From Glandiceps talaboti (taxonomy: Eukaryota; Hemichordata; Enteropneusta; Spengelidae): DNA of 64,000 bases. The notes beneath the pieces were generated by a model. It ran no database searches and was not told where the DNA came from. It was given only the letters and a program-made list of their open reading frames with translations. The DNA is taken from the NCBI RefSeq assembly GCF_964340395.1, contig NC_135570.1, forward strand, positions 1 through 64,000. Reading direction: 5' to 3'. The translations under genes were made by a program, and so were the position numbers. The stretch's first letter is position 1. Each line of letters starts with the position of its first letter. Shown piece after piece: positions 17,777 to 63,923 of the stretch.

Positions 17777-28969
<11,193 letters not shown>

Positions 28970-46600: not shown

Positions 46601-49600
46601 AAAGTACATTTCTTTGTTTCAAGTATTTATTTTGATTTCAGTCTGATTGTGAAAGAACCATCTCAGTAACAACCTTCAGTTTTTGACTTGGTTAATGGGC
46701 CAACAGAATTACAAATAAAAAATTTGTTGGTAAACTGTTTTGAAAACCATTTAAACTTGCATCCCATTTTTAGGATGTTTTTACATACTAGAGTTAAAAA
46801 AAAACAAGTTATGCAGGGTTAAGAATTGGGAATCATGGCAACAGAGGGGGAAAATCTGTTAAAACCCACATATACCATTTCTTGTAAAATATTTTGTAGA
46901 GAAGAACCCAGTAAATTATGTAGGGGAACTCAGGTAGATTTCACTTATTTATCACCCTCAACAAAAATACAGAATAATTAATATGTATGATCAGTTTTGA
47001 TTAGATCAATATTTAAATTTGAACCCTTCATACAGAGGACTGATAGATAACAAAGGACATACAACATCTTACAATTATTCAAAAATGTCACGCAGAGAAT
47101 CTGAAAAATAACACTTACCTTGATGATGGCAGAGTCATTATGATGGCTGATATCTTCAGCTTGTATTTCAAGCTGAAAATAACCATGGTAGAATGTGACG
47201 AAAAGTTCATTTGTACGCACTGTGCCATCAAGTCGGCCTATCTTAAATGCATCAGGCTCAGGACGTTCTGATCCGTCATTAGTTGTATCAATGTGAATGC
47301 TGTTTAAGATCGTGTAGACCACTATACTGTTGTTACCAGAATCATCATCTCTTGCTACCATGGTGATTAGCTCCGACTCATACTTGGCATCCACTGACAG
47401 ACCTGTACCAGAAAAATTCATTAATTGACTGAAAATAATATTTCCAAAATATAGAAAATAAAGTACATGACATTTTTCTGGCAATGACTTGCCCAGAATA
47501 CAAGGATCAGGATAATGGATAGAATGTGTAACAAACTGATGAATCACACAAGTTACCTCCTATTATTTGACTTACCTGCAGTGTACTCTTTCTTTTTAAA
47601 TCTTGGTCCATTATCATTGATATCAGCCACTTCAATAACAACTTTCTTGATACTGCCATCATTACTTAGATTATCATTAGTTATGTTAACATCTCTTCTG
47701 TGTCTTCCATTCAAGTCTTCCATGAAATGCGACTCGTTTGTAGCTTTGACTGTCAGTACAAACTGCTGAGTTTTCTCTCTATCTAATTCCTTGATTTGTA
47801 TTATGGTTCCATTGTTCTTTAAAATGTAGAAATAACCATCTTGGTTTCCATCTGGCAGGAAAGTATAAAACAAGAATTTTTGTATAAACAATAATATTTG
47901 CTTTATGCCTCATATACACATACTATTGTAGTAAACAAGGTGTGAAGTTGGCCAGATTCAGGAACATTTGTTCACTAGACAGACTACTGGTATTAGCACT
48001 ACCAGTCATGCTACCCAGACCAACTTCCACTGACTTTACCACACTCCCCTCCCTCCTGAACTTTGGGAAACTCACTCAAACCACAAGCTACAACTCTACA
48101 GATGCTGTACACCAATGCATGCCCAGTTTTCCTCATCACCAAATGTGGTAAACAGGGAGAAAAGTTGGGACCTTTCGATCACTATCAGCCACACTACCTA
48201 CACTGATGTGTCATCAAACATAGACAAAGAAGATGGGTCAGTTTGACAATAGCCACTCACAGTCTCAGATTTCAATATGTTGATTATCTATCATATGTAT
48301 GCCCCACATACACTATATGGAATGCAGTATACCAATATAGTGTTTAATATTTATGTTTTTTATTTGTCAACATACAAGCTGACATGATAATAGAATGTAC
48401 AACTACACTATTCAATGAAGCAACTATAATGTAAATTAGTTTGATTCTCAATAAGGGCATTTGATTTTTTTCCAGTGTAACTCATCATATGCAAAAATTC
48501 TGTTTCAGTAAAGTGAACTGCTGATTTACATAATGTACATTGATAAATGTTATCATTTTCTAAAAGCTTAAATAATCACCACTTAGAGGCAACCATGTAT
48601 CAGACTTACCAATGATAAAGTAAAAGATTTTGGCATTGTCTCCCATATCCATGTCAACAGCTGGCATCACATGACCCACTACACTGCCATTGGCTGAATG
48701 TTCTAATATTGACATAGTTTGGGCAATCTATTTCAAGAAATAATATATAAAGCAACAAATTGCCATTATAGGGATGACACAATAGAATTGAAAGTAATGC
48801 TAGGACCTTATAACAAGGGGTGTACAGAAATAGAATTGAAAGTAATGCTAGGACCTTATAACAAGGGGTGTACAGAAATAGAATTGATAGTAATGCTAGG
48901 ACCTTATAACAAGGGGTGTACAGAAATAGAATTGAAAGTAATGCTAGGACCTTATAACAAGGGGTGTACAGAAATAGAATTGAAAGTAATGCTAGGACCT
49001 TATAACAAGGGGTGTACAGAAATAGAATTGATAGTAATACTAGGACCTTATAACAAGGGGTGTACAGAAATAGAATTGATAGTAATACTAGGACCTTATA
49101 ACAAGGGGTGTACAGAAATAGAATTGATAGTAATACTAGGACCTTATAACAAGGGGTGTACAGAAATAGAATTGAAAGTAATGCTAGGACCTTATAACAA
49201 GGGGTGTACAGAAATAGAATTGATAGTAATGCTAGGACCTTATAACAAGGGGTGTACAGAAATAGAATTGAAAGTAATGCTAGGACCTTATAACAAGGGG
49301 TGTACAGAAATAGAATTGATAGTAATACTAGGACCTTATAACAAGGGGTGTACAGAAATAGAATTGATAGTAATACTGGAACCTTATAAAAAGGGGTGTA
49401 CAGAAATAGAATTGAAAGTAATGCTAGGACCTTATAACAAGGGGTGTACAGAAATAGAATTGAAAATAATCAACTTACATTACTGTTTGGAAATAGTGGA
49501 ACATTGTCATCTTCATCCTCTACATGTATAACCACGGTCTGTGTAGTTTCAAACTGTGGTTCACCAAGATCCTTGGCTAACAACACAATCTAAGAGAGAG

Positions 49601-58800: not shown

Positions 58801-61800
58801 CACCAGATTGGAAATTAATAAGATGTACCCAATGTGGTAAACTTGGGCATAAAATAGATGATTGTAGATTCCAGGTAATTGGTATTGTCCTCCATCTCTG
58901 TTCTAGCTCATATAGATTCATGAAATGTTTACCAAAACCTAATCAGTTCTAGCCATTACCCTAAAGAATATGTGCACAAAATGTCATTTAAATTGAGTCA
59001 ACCATTTTTCTACCAGTCTTAACTTACCAAAACTGAATTCTCTCTTCTATTACTTGGTATTCCTGTGGGGTTATCTTTAGCTGTTACTGTCAGTGTATAC
59101 TCAGACTTAGATTCTCTGTCTAGTAAGTTTGCAAGGATAATACTCCCCTGAAATATAACACACAAAGATATGATCAATGTGCCCTTTTCATACAATCATT
59201 AATCATTACAATTATCATAATTACTGGCATCTTATCTTAATCAGATTAGATTAGATTAGATTAGATTGGATTAGATTAGATTAGATTAGATTAGATTAGA
59301 ATAGAATACTTAATAACCAAAACGACTGTAAGGCCAAAAAAAAACCGTGTGGTTCCAGTTACGCTAAATTTTAGAATAGCTGGGGTAAATCTTGATCATG
59401 GTGAACACTCTAATGTGATAATGTCTTATTAAATGATTTTTTAATAATTCTAATTATACTTACAGTGATCTCATCAATTAGGAATTTTCCTCCACCACCT
59501 GCCAAAGTGTACAGAATGTCTCCAAAACTTCCACTATCCGGATCTGTTGCTTTGACAACTAACACTTCAGTACCAACAGTGGCATTCTCCAAGATGGCTG
59601 CCTGGTATTCAATCTCTTCAAATTCTGGGTTGTTGTCGTTGACTTCTATCACCTCTATATATATTGGTATTTGTGTAGATCTAGATGGATTGCCAAGATC
59701 TGTGGCTCTGATACTAAAATTTAACCACTTGTAGTCCTCTCTGTCAATTCTGCCACTGATTGTCACAACTCCTGTAAAACATTAAGCCACTGATTGTCAC
59801 AACTCCTGTAAAACATTAAGCCACTGATTGTCACAACTCCTGTAAAACATTAAGCCACTGATTGTCACAACTCCTGTAAAACATTAAGCCACTGATTGTC
59901 ACAACTCCTGTAAAACATTAAGCCACTGATTGTCACAACTCCTGTAAAACATTAAGCCACTTATTGTCACAACTCCTGTAAAACATTAAGCCACTGATTG
60001 TCACAACTCCTGTAAAACATTAAGCCACTGATTGTCACAACTCCTGTAAAACATTAAGCCACTGATTGTCACAACTCCTGTAAAACATTAAGCCACTGAT
60101 TGTCACAACTCCTGTAAAACATTAAGCCACTTATTGTCACAACTCCTGTAAAACATTAAGCCACTTATTGTCACAACTCCTATAAAACATTAACACTACA
60201 AAAATTTAAGAAAAGAATACTTACCAGCATTAGGGTCCTTGACTTCCACCATATCAGTAATGTTGTCTATAATTTGATATGTTACCATACCATTTGATCC
60301 TTTATCAGCATCAACAGCAATAACTGTAGTCACAACAGTATCAACTGGTGTGTGTTCTACCAGCTGTTCAAGTACATATGTCACACCATCAGGTTGAAAT
60401 ACAGGACCATTATCATTGACATCCAGTAGACGTATTGTCAGCACAGCTATGGAGAAATCAGTCAGTAATTTAGTCAGTATTTCTATCAGTATTTTAGTCA
60501 ATATTTCTGTCAGTGTTTTGTCAGTAATTTAGTTACTAGTTCTAGTTAGTATTATAGTTTAGTTACTTCATGTTGGGCCTGTTTAGAACCCAAGGCACTT
60601 TCTAATTACCTACATTCTTTAAAGTGGCCATATGGATGAGAATTTGGTATTTATTTTGGATTTTTATTTGATAAAACAGCTTCACTATGTTTTTCTACTT
60701 GAAAAAATAATGTGAAAGAACATATACCAAGTCCATGTTCATAACTCAATAAATGACAAAACATTAAACAATGTGTAAAATGTTTGTTATTGTACGTACA
60801 ATAACAAACTTTTTACACTTTGTGCATCTTTTTGCAATGTATTGAGTTATAAACATGGACTTGGTATATGTTCTTTCACATTATTTTTCCAAGTAGAAAA
60901 ATATGGTGAAGCTGTTTTATCAAATAAAAATCCAAAATAAATACCAAATTCTCATCCATATGGCCACTTTAATATGGGTCGAGCACTTACAAAGCACCCC
61001 ACTCTCATCTAAGGATCTTTTCACTTGCTTTAGTAACTATCAGGTACATTCTATTAGGGGAATGGTGAAGGGTTTGGATATGGATCTAGCCTAAATATAA
61101 GGATAGGCCCTTAGCTGAATAATGGCTTGGTACAGCAATGGATAGTATAGTTCACTAGATGTGGAGGGCAATGGATAGTCTGTATTGTACACAAGTCATC
61201 ATACTGAAATTTATAATATTTCAAAAATCTAATCAAATTTACAAGAAGTAGTAGTTATAAATTTGATTGCAGTTCACTTTTAACCACAGTAACTGCTTTA
61301 TATGCATTGTCATTCTCGGCAATAGTATGGTGTATATGCTGTTTATTTTTCAGTATATTTCCCTTCTGTGTCTATTGTCATATTTGGAGGTATGGTGATA
61401 CTGGCAGTGATGAGGGTGATGGTGGTGATGATGATGGTGGTGGTGGTGGTGGTGGTGGTGGTGGTGGTGGTTGTGGGGAGGTGATAAGTGATTATGTTGT
61501 ATCTATATGTAGTTATTGCAGTTGTGTGACTTACCATTTGGATCACTGCTACTCATTTCTGGAGACACAGAAAGTAGATCAGATGCTGCAATAGTGAGTG
61601 TAAGTGTTGATACCATCTCTCTATCTAACTGATGAGACACTACTATTTCACCAGAATTAATGTTGATTACAAACCATTGAAGAAATACAACATCATGAAC
61701 TTCATTCTCCTCCTCATCAAATCCAGACACAGTTACTATGGAGTACTGCAACATACTGTCAACATCTGGATCTGCTGCTGTTACCAAGGCAACAAAAGAT

Positions 61801-63923
61801 CCCACAGCAGAGTCTTCATAGACCTCAACAGTTTGCATCACTCTTTCAAAATGTGGTGGCGTATCATTAATGTCGTCAACTAGAATAGTCACAATTCCTG
61901 CGCCTGATTGTGGTGGATTGCCTCTATCTGTTGCTATGACAACAAGTGTGTATGTGTCTTTCTCTTCTCTGTCAAGAGTTTGTCCTGGAGCAATCTGAAA
62001 ACACATAAAAACAAATGATGAAATTTGAATAAATGTGTTCACTCTGAATAAAGGAAATATGCCAGTAAGAGTTTATCATGCTTATTCAGATCACCTCTGA
62101 GTTTTAACCAACATTTGCAGCTGATTCACAAGTCTACACCCCCCTCCTATGTAAATTTACCCTCTACACCACCTTTCTTTGTCACATGTTGTGTAATAGT
62201 GAAGACTCACCTTAATAAGTCCTGTATTTGGATTGATTGTAAATTTATCTTGTCCACCATTACGTCACATGTTGTGTAATAGTGAAGGCTCACCTTAATA
62301 AGTCCTGTATTTGGATTGATTGTAAATTTATCTTGTCCACCATTACGTCACATGTTGTGTAATAGTGAAGACTCACCTTAATAAGTCCTGTATTTGGATT
62401 GATTGTAAATTTATCTTGTCCACCATTGTGTCACATGTTGTGTAATAGTGAAGACTCACCTTAATAAGTCCTGTATTTGGATTGATTGTAAATTTATCTT
62501 GTCCACCATTACGTCACATGTTGTGTAATAGTGAAGACTCACCTTAATAAGTCCTGTATTTGGATTGATTGTAAATTTATCTTGTCCACCATTACGTCAC
62601 ATGTTGTGTAATAGTGAAGACTCACCTTAATAAGTCCTGTATTTGGATTGACTGTAAATTTATCTTGTCCACCATTATGTCACATGTTGTGCAATAGTGA
62701 AGACTCACCTTAATAAGTCCTGTATTTGGATTGATTGTAAATTTATCTTGTCCACCATTACGTCACATGTTGTGCAATAGTGAAGACTCACCTTAATAAG
62801 TCCTGTATTTGGATTGATTGTAAATTTATCTTGTCCACCATTATGTCACATGTTGTGTAATAGTGAAGACTCACCTTAATAAGTCCTGTATTTGGATTGA
62901 TTGTAAATTTATCTTGTCCACCACTCTCTATACGATATGTCACATGTTGGTTGATGTCAGCATCCTTATCACTGGCTGAGACCTGTGTCAACTCCTCTCC
63001 TAGATTATAAAATGGAATAGTAACATATATTTATCTTGTATGTCACTATAATCATTAAGTATTTTATTTGCACAACTGAACTGAGGTTCAGTATACTGCA
63101 GTAGTGCTATAGCCATGGTGAAATATCTGTGTGTGTGTGTGTGGTGGTGGTGGTGGGGGGGTTGTATGTAAATGACTTAAAGTCAAAAACCACCACACCG
63201 ATTGGCTTGGTATTTGGTGGCGACATTGCAGAGGGCGTGTAGATGGAAAATTGTTCAAATGAAAATGATCACATCAGAGATGTGAGAAAATACTTTGACT
63301 CAGCCTAGAAATCTAGAAATGAAAGGTTGTTGCTTTATTGATGCCATGATATCATTAGATCTTTCATGGGCTACTTCACACCTTAATGTCAATGGCAACA
63401 AGATTAACCTCTGTTTGATGTTGCTTGGAAACACTGTTTTAGCACAGCTGAATTAAATGATAGACACTGTCAGGTTCATTCATGCTACAGACATGATAAA
63501 GAGTCTTGTCCATCTATATATCTGTCTGTCTGTCTGTCTGCCTTTCTGTGGTTGACTTAAACTTAAAGAAACTCAAAAACCACCTGGAAGGATATTTTGG
63601 GGTGGTCAGAAAAGTGACAAGTTGTGATTTCATTTACAATTCATCTAGATGTTTAGGAAAGGAAGAAGATGTGATTTTAGAAGTAACCTACATGTGTGGG
63701 TAAAATATTTCAAAGACCTGCTTACCTTCTCTTGCAGTCTCAGCTATATGTGTTGTGATTTCATTTGGAATGAATACTGGGCTGTTATCATTTTCATCAA
63801 GTATCTCTATGCTAACCTCTGCTGAGCTGTTCAATCTACCAATATCTGATGCTGTGACTGTAAATGTGTAGTTATCTTCAGTCTCTCTGTCCAACAAACT
63901 GGTTGAGTTCACCATCAAAACAG
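36635..63923 (-). CDS. CDH23: Cadherin-23 orthologue, C-terminal part (26 coding exons, 5' end outside the window)
   Basis: Twenty-six exons with GT-AG borders chain without a phase error into about 1,809 residues ending at TAA 36637-36635. Order: end of one EC repeat, ten full ECs, a last EC, the membrane-adjacent domain, one membrane helix (about 1380-1403) and a 400-residue cytoplasmic part. ECs show the Ca2+ motifs LDRE, DxD and DxNDN at each linker. The stretches RVKIVFNHDP, SNVTGALIHVDDI, THVIQIIDENYASLVNLF and SNPLWID correspond to the membrane-proximal and juxtamembrane parts of vertebrate CDH23, which separates it from other long cadherins. If it has 27 ECs as in vertebrates, the window starts in EC16. 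In vertebrates CDH23 forms hair-cell tip links with PCDH15 and binds harmonin through its C-terminus; the ETFL end here is a class I PDZ ligand. Sensory-cell use in this animal is an inference. Confidence 0.95.
38333..38420 (-). CDS. CDH23: CDH23 exon: juxtamembrane, part 2
   Basis: Acceptor cttacag, donor CAG|GTAAGC. SNPLWIDNYSWVSDWP, FEREYEAQ; the NPLWID motif aligns with NPVWLD in vertebrate CDH23. Confidence 0.95.
38512..41502. mobile_element. ~3-kb foldback element with >300-bp inverted arms and TA flanks
   Basis: The left arm (38512-~38900) begins gtcaggacaccaag and holds tgttgcccctctggattctc and tttccatggtaacagtgac. The right arm (~41200-41502) is its diverged reverse complement and ends cttggcaccctgac. 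TA stands on both outer sides (38510-38511, 41503-41504). The interior, from ttggttttgagggatgggct at about 39404, is made of degenerate ~280-bp units shared with 15770-17456. No transposase. It lies in a CDH23 intron. Confidence 0.75.
41770..42345. repeat. ~100-bp-unit repeat family (third site)
   Basis: Units with ttgcataattaatgattttc, agtaattaagctatatctaa and aacaaagcacacatgtcc, as at 29590-30640, between the foldback element and a CDH23 exon. Confidence 0.7.
42380..42463 (-). CDS. CDH23: CDH23 exon: juxtamembrane, part 1
   Basis: Acceptor tttacag, donor CAGGG|GTAAGT (GG before the donor). HRSKLEAIATFSYG, DLLRDSSYQG; basic, then serine-rich. Confidence 0.94.
43740..43995. repeat. Dispersed repeat, copy 2 (see 10745-11160)
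   Basis: Blocks gtgtggttccgattacgct, catcagatgtacag, tgtctttttaagttgatgtc and aggtaaccggaaccaaacaa, in the same order as copy 1, just downstream of the transmembrane exon in gene sense. Confidence 0.75.
44029..44153 (-). CDS. CDH23: CDH23 exon: transmembrane helix
   Basis: Acceptor gacag, donor ACAA|GTAAGT. Starts PAIPPRVEEDIS outside the cell, then the helix ALVTIGILLFIGVFIYIVCI and the basic stop-transfer WIKYK. Confidence 0.96.
44637..44703 (-). CDS. CDH23: CDH23 exon: membrane-adjacent domain, end
   Basis: Acceptor tttacag, donor GTG|GTAAGT. IIDENYASLVNLFKIYNVIE; phase 0 at its 3' end. Confidence 0.95.
45060..45440. repeat. Dispersed repeat, copy 1 (see 51640-52110)
   Basis: Contains caattgctttaatcataagc, gtaaagtatgttttctgcta and atgacatctagacgatgg. 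An internal ~60-bp piece (actcacattattgactatct) is tandemly duplicated. Confidence 0.75.
45777..45932 (-). CDS. CDH23: CDH23 exon: membrane-adjacent domain, part 2
   Basis: Acceptor ctgtag, donor TTCA|GTAAGT. ISNVTGALIHVDDIQYHI, KTDMLIHAVDPHTNAIMDVT; one of the stretches most like vertebrate CDH23. Confidence 0.96.
46502..46590 (-). CDS. CDH23: CDH23 exon: membrane-adjacent domain, part 1
   Basis: Acceptor acacag, donor ATAAG|GTATGT. YMLKDNQRVKIVFNHDPDTV, FKEQLIR. This matches the start of the ferredoxin-like membrane-adjacent domain known in CDH23 and PCDH15. Confidence 0.95.
47119..47402 (-). CDS. CDH23: CDH23 exon: last cadherin repeat (EC27)
   Basis: Acceptor tacag, donor AAG|GTAAGT. 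Holds VARDDDSGNNSIVVYTIL and YFQLEIQAEDISHHNDSAII. The usual LDRE motif and the closing DxNDN are absent, as expected for a last repeat. Confidence 0.94.
47576..47851 (-). CDS. CDH23: CDH23 exon: rest of EC26
   Basis: Acceptor tgccag, donor GCAG|GTAAGT. GNQDGYFYILKNNGTI, KELDREKTQQFVLTVKATN, then a long polar loop with GRHRRDVN, and the linker VADINDNGPRF. The RHRR motif (47694-47705) fits a furin-type site. Confidence 0.95.
48610..48727 (-). CDS. CDH23: CDH23 exon: first part of EC26
   Basis: Acceptor aaatag, donor ATTG|GTAAGT. TMSILEHSANGSVVGHVM, AVDMDMGDNAKIFYFI. Confidence 0.95.
48781..49466. repeat. 48-bp minisatellite, 14 copies
   Basis: The unit contains gctaggaccttataacaagg plus ggtgtacagaaatagaatt; variants are gaaagtaatgc, gatagtaatgc and gatagtaatac. 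It fills the intron between two CDH23 exons almost from border to border. Confidence 0.97.
49479..49589 (-). CDS. CDH23: CDH23 exon: end of EC25
   Basis: Acceptor tcttag, donor AAT|GTAAGT. IVLLAKDLGEPQFETTQ, linker VEDEDDNVPLF (a DEDDN variant of DxNDN). Confidence 0.95.
49909..50215. repeat. 26-bp minisatellite, about 12 copies
   Basis: The unit contains gtgcaatgttgtgctacagc plus ctcaag; later copies read gtgctatg. It lies in a CDH23 intron. Confidence 0.96.
50442..50636 (-). CDS. CDH23: CDH23 exon: most of EC25
   Basis: Acceptor ttttag, donor ACG|GTAAGG. HEPGFYIAQIQANDGDLGDN, FYIDEVNGNLYT, ADRELKAAYT; phase 0 on both sides. Confidence 0.94.
50818..50862. repeat. (AAAT)n microsatellite
   Basis: About eleven copies in a CDH23 intron. 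Confidence 0.95.
51105..51328 (-). CDS. CDH23: CDH23 exon: second half of EC24, start of EC25
   Basis: Acceptor ttcag, donor GAG|GTTTGT (unusual +3 T). QFQIEQDSGAVMLAK, linker ITDVNDRKPIF (Arg replaces Asn). Confidence 0.94.
51430..51600. repeat. Two-copy tandem duplication (~65 bp)
   Basis: The phrase ccaatgcctgtttctggtaa...aaccctaacact is repeated with changes as ccaatgcttgtttctggaaa...aaccctaacact. Confidence 0.8.
51640..52110. repeat. Dispersed repeat, copy 2 (see 45060-45440)
   Basis: Shares caattgctttaat, aatttgtaaagtacgttttc, aacagcaaaatgattacaat, atgacatctagacaatg and ctttgaactgctaacattgt with 45060-45440, in the same orientation. Both copies lie in CDH23 introns. Confidence 0.75.
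52495..52675 (-). CDS. CDH23: CDH23 exon: end of EC23, first half of EC24
   Basis: Acceptor taatag, donor AATG|GTAAGT. Linker IEDINDVAPIF (Val replaces Asn), VTAVDLDEGDNGRVRYSI. Confidence 0.95.
52882..53129 (-). CDS. CDH23: CDH23 exon: most of EC23
   Basis: Acceptor ttatag, donor ACT|GTAAGT. TSVGTVIATDSDS, VDEQTGEVKTNKLLDREQRA, YELEIEARN. Confidence 0.95.
53191..54520. repeat. 27-bp minisatellite, about 49 copies
   Basis: Units read actagtttgtcatatcaact plus gatatac. The main variants are gtcat/gccat, gatatac/gatatat, and a few tcatttg or tttact units. It fills most of one CDH23 intron. The unit length is a multiple of three, so a false 451-codon frame runs through it. Confidence 0.97.
54740..55130. 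repeat. Dispersed repeat with B-box-like segment, copy 1
   Basis: Blocks shared with 56700-57000 include ggccctttatacttcctcaa, ggggagcatacaatcc and catggttcaaatc (a fair B box). No coding. Confidence 0.6.
55418..55618 (-). CDS. CDH23: CDH23 exon: end of EC22, start of EC23
   Basis: Acceptor ttaaag, donor ATTG|GTAAGT. EQTGALTTVKSLDHESRP, linker ILDTNDQAPLF (Gln replaces the usual Asn), then VTENVSI. Confidence 0.95.
55805..55874. repeat. (GA)n microsatellite
   Basis: About 35 GA dinucleotides in a CDH23 intron. Confidence 0.97.
56560..56653 (-). CDS. CDH23: CDH23 exon: middle of EC22
   Basis: Acceptor cattag, donor TCAG|GTAAGT. VYQFRAIDIDQDQTLSYSIH; the usual D-D-N loop is shortened. Confidence 0.93.
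56700..57000. repeat. Dispersed repeat with B-box-like segment, copy 2
   Basis: Matches 54740-55080 in blocks: agccctttatacttt, ctggggagcatacaatcca, then atggttcgaatg-type sequence resembling a polymerase III B box. Both copies may be old SINEs in CDH23 introns. Confidence 0.6.
57172..57312 (-). CDS. CDH23: CDH23 exon: end of EC21, start of EC22
   Basis: Acceptor catag, donor CTG|GTAAGT. IADRGNPPKHV, linker VLDVNDNSPYF, then YNVTLSEDDFGGTL. Confidence 0.95.
57638..57741 (-). CDS. CDH23: CDH23 exon: middle of EC21
   Basis: Acceptor caccag, donor CAG|GTGAGT. MFEIDPGTGEIF, PLDREVIGNDGSMVMTVQ. Confidence 0.95.
58015..58305 (+). mobile_element. tRNA-derived SINE
   Basis: The head reads gtcggtggccgagtggttaa, a tRNA-Ser/Leu-like A box (TGGCCGAGTGG). 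It is followed by a B-box-like ttgaatccattc about 45 bases on, a unique body with gatcgatggccctcactgg, and an A-rich end (actataaataaaaaaaatc). A C run at 58151-58170 interrupts the body. It is not a functional tRNA, since the acceptor stem and arms do not close. It lies in a CDH23 intron, opposite to the gene. Confidence 0.7.
58439..58616 (-). CDS. CDH23: CDH23 exon: linker and first half of EC21
   Basis: Acceptor tttcag, donor TATG|GTATGG (weaker than its neighbours). Linker VVDVNDNTPVP, then VTASDADGGANGLVLYSI. Confidence 0.92.
59028..59147 (-). CDS. CDH23: CDH23 exon: end of EC20
   Basis: Acceptor tttcag, donor TTG|GTAAGT. GSIILANLLDRESKSEYTLT, then VTAKDNPTG and NSVL; phase 0 on both sides. 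Confidence 0.95.
59243..59305. repeat. (TTAGA)n pentanucleotide array
   Basis: About eleven copies of attag/gatta in a CDH23 intron, beside a short piece of the 10.7-kb dispersed repeat at 59325-59395. Confidence 0.9.
59464..59771 (-). CDS. CDH23: CDH23 exon: second half of EC19, most of EC20
   Basis: Acceptor tttacag (the proximal one of the repeated set), donor ATCACT|GTAAGT. GRIDREDYKWLNFSIRATD, linker VIEVNDNNPEF, VVKATDPDSGSFGDILYT and FLIDEIT. Confidence 0.94.
59754..60192. repeat. 34-bp minisatellite carrying a splice acceptor (about 13 copies including the real one)
   Basis: The unit holds gattgtcacaactcctgtaa; on the - strand this is TTACAG|GAGTTGTGACAATC, the acceptor of the next CDH23 exon. 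Copies start at 59771 and every 34 bp up to 60179. All keep the AG; the most distant copy has ATAG. About 19 bases of each unit are exonic and 15 intronic. Confidence 0.97.
60225..60446 (-). CDS. CDH23: CDH23 exon: end of EC18, first half of EC19
   Basis: Acceptor ccatag, donor GCTG|GTAAGT. Linker LLDVNDNGPVF, then VTTVIAVDADKGSNGMVTYQ and VEVKDPNA. Confidence 0.95.
60619..60972. mobile_element. 354-bp palindromic MITE-like element without spacer
   Basis: Two ~177-bp arms are inverted copies with few mismatches and meet at tgtac|gtaca (60795/60796) with no loop. Outer ends are TTAAAGTGGCC / GGCCACTTTAA, so TTAA may be the target duplication. It lies in a CDH23 intron. Confidence 0.85.
61425..61478. 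repeat. (GGT)n microsatellite in a CDH23 intron
   Basis: About 13 GGT/GAT-type triplets next to the preceding exon's donor. Confidence 0.93.
61535..61994 (-). CDS. CDH23: CDH23 exon: second half of EC17, most of EC18
   Basis: Acceptor ttcag, donor AATG|GTAAGT; the longest EC exon. Has LDREEKDTYTLVVIATDRG, linker DDINDTPPHF, VTAADPDVDS, and a loop FDEEENEVHDVV before WFVININSGEI and LDREMVSTLTLTIAASD. Confidence 0.95.
62181..62923. repeat. 83-bp minisatellite carrying an exon end and splice donor (9 copies including the real one)
   Basis: Sequence cttaataagtcctgtatttg recurs at 62211, 62294, 62377, 62460, 62543, 62626, 62709, 62792 and 62875, exactly 83 bp apart. The copy at 62875 is the true 3' end of the CDH23 exon. 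Every copy repeats about 49 exonic bases (GQDKFTINPNTGLIK) and keeps a GT donor (GGTGAG). Copies are almost identical (acgtcac / atgtcac / gtgtcac variants), so the expansion is recent. Confidence 0.97.
62875..62999 (-). CDS. CDH23: CDH23 exon: first half of EC17
   Basis: Acceptor aatctag, donor AAG|GTGAGT. Holds SASDKDADINQHVTYRIE and INPNTGLIK. Its last ~49 bases and the donor are the source of the adjoining 83-bp repeat array. Confidence 0.93.
63065..63640. repeat. Two heads of the actgataaggttcagtagtgc repeat family in a CDH23 intron
   Basis: One copy at 63065-63280 (acaactgaactgaggttcag, then (TG)n, then aaaaaccaccacaccgattg) and a second partial copy at 63440-63640 with a (GTCT)n run. 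Confidence 0.7.
63726..63923 (-). CDS. CDH23: CDH23 exon: end of EC16, start of EC17
   Basis: Acceptor ctgtag, donor GAAG|GTAAGC. Residues 1-65: LLDRETEDNYTFTVTASD, linker ILDENDNSPVF, then the first strand of the next repeat up to HIAETARE. EC numbers here and below count back from the last repeat, taken as EC27. Confidence 0.92.

Follow-up and report, generated by a model that had tools for sequence, protein, structure and literature searches.

We analyzed a 64,000-nt window of genomic DNA, which is positions 1 to 64,000 of contig C24 and shares that contig's numbering, and found that a long cadherin gene on its minus strand carries tandem repeats that have grown across splice borders. The best documented case is an 83-bp minisatellite at 62181–62923 that repeats the end of a coding exon, its GT donor and the start of the following intron nine times. 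Together with the part of the gene that lies upstream of the window, the gene contains six such arrays, four at donors and two at acceptors, and these belong to a kind of structure already described under the name 'mirage'. In our judgment, they probably arose as minisatellites expanded neutrally across splice borders of a gene rich in such repeats, an expansion that was tolerated since the exon-proximal splice site is the one used. On this view, the minisatellites themselves are most likely ordinary, and what is extraordinary is their location. All exons described here are predictions, taken from a gene model that forbids in-frame stops by construction.

An 83-bp array repeats an exon end and its donor

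Tandem Repeats Finder (TRF) resolves positions 62181–62923 of the minus strand into a period of 83 bp with 9.0 copies (98% matches, 0% indels, score 1430), and inspection of the copies agrees with the nine-copy array given in a preliminary description of this DNA. Each unit consists of 49 nt of exon end followed by 34 nt that contain the GT donor. The donor dinucleotide is present in all nine copies at steps of exactly 83 bp (minus strand; 62874, 62791, 62708, 62625, 62542, 62459, 62376, 62293 and 62210). Eight of them read AAG/GTGAGT, while copy 8 has GTGAGC, and the 49-nt exon-derived part is likewise identical in 8/9 copies. The source exon is a predicted 125-nt coding exon within a cadherin repeat (62875–62999, minus strand, phase 1 in and phase 0 out; gene model and Pfam), and its last 49 nt form the exon part of copy 1. 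The exon-proximal donor AAG/GTGAGTCTT occupies 62866–62877 on the minus strand with its GT at 62874, and its use is read from the frame, not from RNA. Beyond it, the intronic portion of the array (62181–62874, minus strand) holds eight decoy donors, from 62791 to 62210. The next predicted coding exon, also of cadherin repeats, is 460 nt long (61535–61994, minus strand, phase 0 in; gene model and Pfam), and a gene model built for this analysis recovered both exons.

The reading frame distinguishes among these nine donors. Without splicing, the frame of the 125-nt exon continues into the intron and stops at a TGA that overlaps the second donor (open reading frame 62788–63030). Splicing from the second donor (62791) runs into a premature stop within the exon that follows, and the seven remaining decoys stop earlier. 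In the gene model, every donor but the exon-proximal one loses the predicted reading frame. The preliminary description had proposed all three effects, namely the frame shift at the second donor, the read-through into TGA and the dependence of the protein on the first donor, and each of them holds.

It had also described the unit as about 49 exon-end bases with a GT donor, which holds and can be extended, as the unit contains even more exon. The exon carries a 14-mer, CAACATGTGACATA (62936–62949, minus strand, offset 50 from 62999), that ends 12 nt ahead of the 49-nt array part. Copies 1 and 3 repeat the same 14-mer exactly at their intron-side end, and the other copies repeat it with one or two bases changed. 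About 63 of the 83 nt appear to be exon-derived, with 12 exon nt missing. This recurrence is possibly a trace of the first duplication, which would then probably have covered more of the exon before the 12 nt were lost. A dispersed element was considered as the source of the array and rejected, as the sequence was found in one genomic place by a search that skips very common words.

Six border-spanning arrays in one cadherin gene

A cadherin profile trained on 30 domain matches within this assembly, together with a Viterbi gene model that used generic metazoan splice matrices, places the host gene on the minus strand between C24:93884 and about 36910. The 473 amino acids around the arrays contain five Pfam cadherin (PF00028) stretches (E = 2.7e-70), and the closest solved relatives by E-value are CELSR1 (5.6e-91, over a long chain) and then Cadherin-23 (6.2e-71). 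Over 52 exons, the phases match and the cadherin repeats continue without interruption. Its sequence identifies the gene as a giant multi-repeat cadherin, a name that we give at the level of the repeats and not of a subfamily. We set aside a pseudogene given this long chain of in-phase exons, in a model that excludes stops by design.

About 2 kb downstream of the 83-bp array, a 34-bp minisatellite of 13 copies spans the acceptor border TTAATGTTTTACAG/GAGTTGTGACAATCAGTGGC (59752–60193, minus strand; TRF and copy inspection, 13.0 copies, 99% match). Upstream of it lies a predicted 222-nt coding exon (60225–60446, minus strand; gene model), and the last 34-bp copy contributes its exon part to the first 20 nt of the predicted coding exon at 59464–59771 (minus strand; gene model). 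Only the last acceptor, at exon start 59771, keeps the frame, and 12 decoys lie upstream of it.

The coexistence of a donor-side and an acceptor-side array in one gene, already reported in the preliminary description, thus grows to a set of six with units of 26–133 bp. The four additional arrays, all on the minus strand, sit upstream in the minisatellite-rich stretch C24:64001–94000. Three of these are donor arrays: a 26-bp unit in 18.5 copies with 18 donors (C24:93166–93643, predicted donor C24:93631), a 37-bp unit in 17.7 copies with 17 donors (C24:88070–88723, predicted donor C24:88702) and a 133-bp unit in 3.5 copies with three intact donors (C24:64075–64544, predicted donor C24:64477). 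The fourth is an acceptor array with a 58-bp unit, 2.2 copies and two acceptors (C24:68517–68641, exon start C24:68559). The gene model retains one intron at each array-bearing border.

Taken together, the six arrays present 62 splice sites, 56 of them decoys, and many units retain their AG or GT signals. With the predicted coding sequence as reference, 55 of the 56 decoys cause a premature stop, and the predicted protein therefore requires the exon-proximal site. The sole tolerated decoy is donor 2 of the 26-bp array (C24:93607), which would add 24 nt, or eight residues, in frame and without a stop. For nearly all decoys (53/56), the splice score equals that of the real site in the array concerned. 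Across the four larger arrays, splice columns are neither better preserved nor more degraded than the rest (4/38 variable versus 8/142 of the other columns, Fisher P = 0.28). Selection for redundant splice sites, which the preliminary description had ranked as the less likely explanation, was set aside as unlikely on this comparison.

We then counted minisatellites (period 20–300, score ≥ 100, match ≥ 80%) in the 57 kb of the host gene, in which 49 of 53 predicted exons were kept (coding score > 2.5), giving 98 borders. The gene holds 26 minisatellites, with six across predicted borders, 20 wholly in predicted introns and none inside exons. A neighboring case is a 48-bp array of 14 copies (48781–49470) that begins 8 nt inside an intron; the nearby donor at 49478 is not repeated.

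Origin of the arrays

In neutral growth, a short tandem duplication would cover an exon end, its donor and the intron start, with the founding segment straddling the border by chance. Slippage or unequal exchange would then enlarge and homogenize the array into the intron. This growth would be tolerated because the copy touching the exon body remains unchanged and spliced, so that the gene keeps working while the eight other donors of the 83-bp array become intronic decoys. Five further borders of the gene would have undergone an equivalent process. The arrays, their position on predicted borders, the intact decoys, the frame effects and the minisatellite density are seen directly, while we infer use of the exon-proximal site and an amplification that is neutral and indifferent to the border.

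The preliminary description had instead suggested slippage favored at the borders themselves. On such a reading, junction features such as transcription-linked breaks, R-loops or base skew would raise the rate at which tandem duplications start. In the host gene, random seeding with the observed unit lengths yields 2.1 border-spanning arrays when six are observed (P = 0.020), but significance is lost after removing the two originally reported arrays that drew attention to the gene (1.9 expected versus four, P = 0.127). With a zero overlap margin, the same comparisons give 2.9 versus six (P = 0.072) and 2.6 versus four (P = 0.27). A comparison set was drawn from 12 loci of 10 kb each (eight myosin, two ABC transporter and two cadherin regions), where 52 of 80 exons were kept (coding score > 4), with 104 borders, of which the tests used 102 to negligible effect. 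None of its 24 minisatellites overlaps a kept exon, against 1.0 border-spanning array expected. This absence covers kept exons only, as the finder missed exons and kept a few low-complexity ones (loci L042 and L051), and one L051 array, whose end lies 6 nt away from the edge of a kept exon, was left uncounted. Pooling the host gene with these loci gives 3.1 expected versus six (P = 0.097). With 20 of the 26 host minisatellites intronic, a preference of slippage for borders is not established, and we regard borders as preferred seeds as unlikely.

Several results nevertheless weigh against border-indifferent growth. When the locus is left uncollapsed in the simulation, 1.6 border arrays are expected versus the six observed (P = 0.006). 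On the side of the neutral reading, the same simulation expects 3.2 arrays wholly within exons when none is observed (P = 0.03), as if growth within exons were purged and growth across borders tolerated. On the adverse side again, arrays occupy 6/98 borders in the host gene versus 0/~104 in the comparison loci (Fisher P = 0.013, computed with 102), and 6/26 host minisatellites span a border versus 0/24 (P = 0.023). The clustering of border arrays in the host gene is therefore probably real, and it exceeds what a uniform process gives. The simplest cause is the gene's higher minisatellite density (26 per 57 kb versus 24 per 120 kb), though it may not be the whole cause. Where the preliminary description looked for a cause shared by the arrays, the one that the data support is a minisatellite-rich gene.

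Genome-wide scans of the 590-Mb assembly (47 contigs) point in the same adverse direction. Triples of AGGTAAGT spaced 25–55 bp apart give 2723 matches versus 896 for the reversed pattern, and triples of CAGGTAAGT give 510 versus 184, figures that are motif matches dominated by a few long arrays rather than counts of arrays. Matches to the single AGGTAAGT motif barely outnumber those to its reverse (21 versus 17 in a 224-kb sample), so that base rate alone may be insufficient to produce this roughly threefold excess of triples, which favors preferred seeding. Among the first five donor arrays so located, however, four have no coding sequence in the ~400 nt ahead of the first donor. The remaining one, at C1:2934484, has a plausible coding exon in front of it, bounded by an acceptor and open over its full 136 nt; the 50-bp unit of the array comprises 25 nt of exon and 25 nt of intron. 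From its sequence, the locus C1:2934080–2934580 (L056) looks like a seventh mirage, on a different chromosome-size contig.

The arrays could also be regulatory. Decoys would divert transcripts to premature stops and thereby tune the amount of cadherin, or the repeats would bind proteins or pair with each other, steering splicing. The stops behind 55/56 decoys and the undiminished scores of 53/56 fit this proposal, and in Caenorhabditis elegans a minisatellite is over-represented near alternative splicing regions (PMC4039745). Against it, arithmetic alone predicts frame loss for most border-spanning arrays, the six unrelated units have only the border in common, and their splice columns are not the better kept ones; we consider a regulatory role quite improbable. 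Still harder to credit is an assembly artefact, or a dying gene whose splice borders no longer matter. Tandem arrays are prone to assembly error, and since the gene model bars in-frame stops, its open frame is not independent proof of function. Yet individual copies have variants of their own, the six arrays differ in their units, and the phase-matched exons still form unbroken cadherin repeats.

Relation to known systems

Excerpts of the amphioxus literature define mirages as tandem repeats over exon–intron borders, on both sides of the intron, in Adh3, the globins BflGb6 and BflGb9, and TnC (PMC3087553, PMC3902484). Their units measure 10–72 and 150–160 bp and are unstable in length, and reverse transcription PCR suggests that regular splicing is undisturbed by them (same excerpts). 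The arrays described here resemble them in spanning borders with minisatellite-size units, many of which keep their AG or GT signals. Unlike in the amphioxus cases presented there, six occur in one gene, with up to 18 donors per array, the host is probably not a cephalochordate, judging from its mitochondrial code, and the arrays are known from the sequence of one assembly. Searches of the open-licence literature showed no hemichordate border-spanning minisatellite among the titles and abstracts listed.

Two further systems are related. Human repeats at exon–intron borders (PMC2812944) are likewise of minisatellite size and may offer new splice choices, but they are tied to segmental duplications and often accompanied by alternative transcripts, whereas the present case concerns a single gene in which the outer site alone preserves the predicted frame. 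When an intron is gained by tandem duplication (PMC4974935), tandem copies similarly join AG and GT, the raw material for a new intron; here, in contrast, no new intron is shown and an existing one has probably been enlarged.

Choice among identical splice sites

Among identical donors that compete in a mammalian minigene, the one closer to the far end of the intron is often preferred, and scanning for an acceptor selects the first AG after the branch point. Both rules favor the inner copies. In the host gene, the opposite copy must therefore win on both sides, unless the choice is anchored in the exon, which makes this gene a useful test object for splice choice. Identical competing sites are usually built in minigenes, while here six series have evolved, each with a clear right answer. 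We offer one wider reading tentatively and with more doubt than belief: minisatellites repeatedly overrun splice borders in this lineage, and the exon body sets the choice at both donors and acceptors against identical sites nearer the intron's other end, with borders perhaps also acting as preferred seeds. If true, one gene would offer up to 18 near-identical donors or 13 acceptors in a natural series, and the set would be the first from outside the cephalochordates to emerge from the open-licence literature searched. The arrays may also extend the range over which mirages are known. The product of array density and border density supplies a quantitative null for asking whether borders are special.

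Other repeats and mitochondrial DNA

The window contains another long minisatellite, with a 66-bp unit in 53 copies (97%) at 18517–22052. It is open for about 840–850 codons in three frames because 66 is a multiple of three, and it could mislead gene callers. A tandem repeat family with units of ~150 bp occurs on the same contig at 25263–25997, 97260–97785, 100347–100751 and 100911–101553, by eye apparently in both orientations.

The 51-kb contig C40 consists of head-to-tail copies of a 15,435-bp mitochondrial DNA (53% GC) that reads TGA as Trp. None of the eight mitochondrial genes scanned, one of them in part, uses AAA, AGA or AGG, and ATA falls largely at sites in COX1 and cytochrome b that we take to be isoleucine. 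According to extracts of a mitochondrial comparison, ATA as Ile is common to echinoderms and hemichordates, and AAA is absent in Balanoglossus carnosus (PMC2697986). The code favors a hemichordate over a cephalochordate, and amphioxus was set aside as the source. The host is most likely a hemichordate, probably an acorn worm, with an echinoderm or another deuterostome less probable. Cytochrome b follows ATP6 in C40, while nd5 and cob are adjacent in both hemichordates compared in those extracts, and the gene order departs from the published hemichordate orders given there (PMC2697986). Two published acorn-worm assemblies have 23 chromosomes, as stated in parts of PMC11175523; here, matches on C26 beyond 10.8 Mb suggest more than 23 large contigs.

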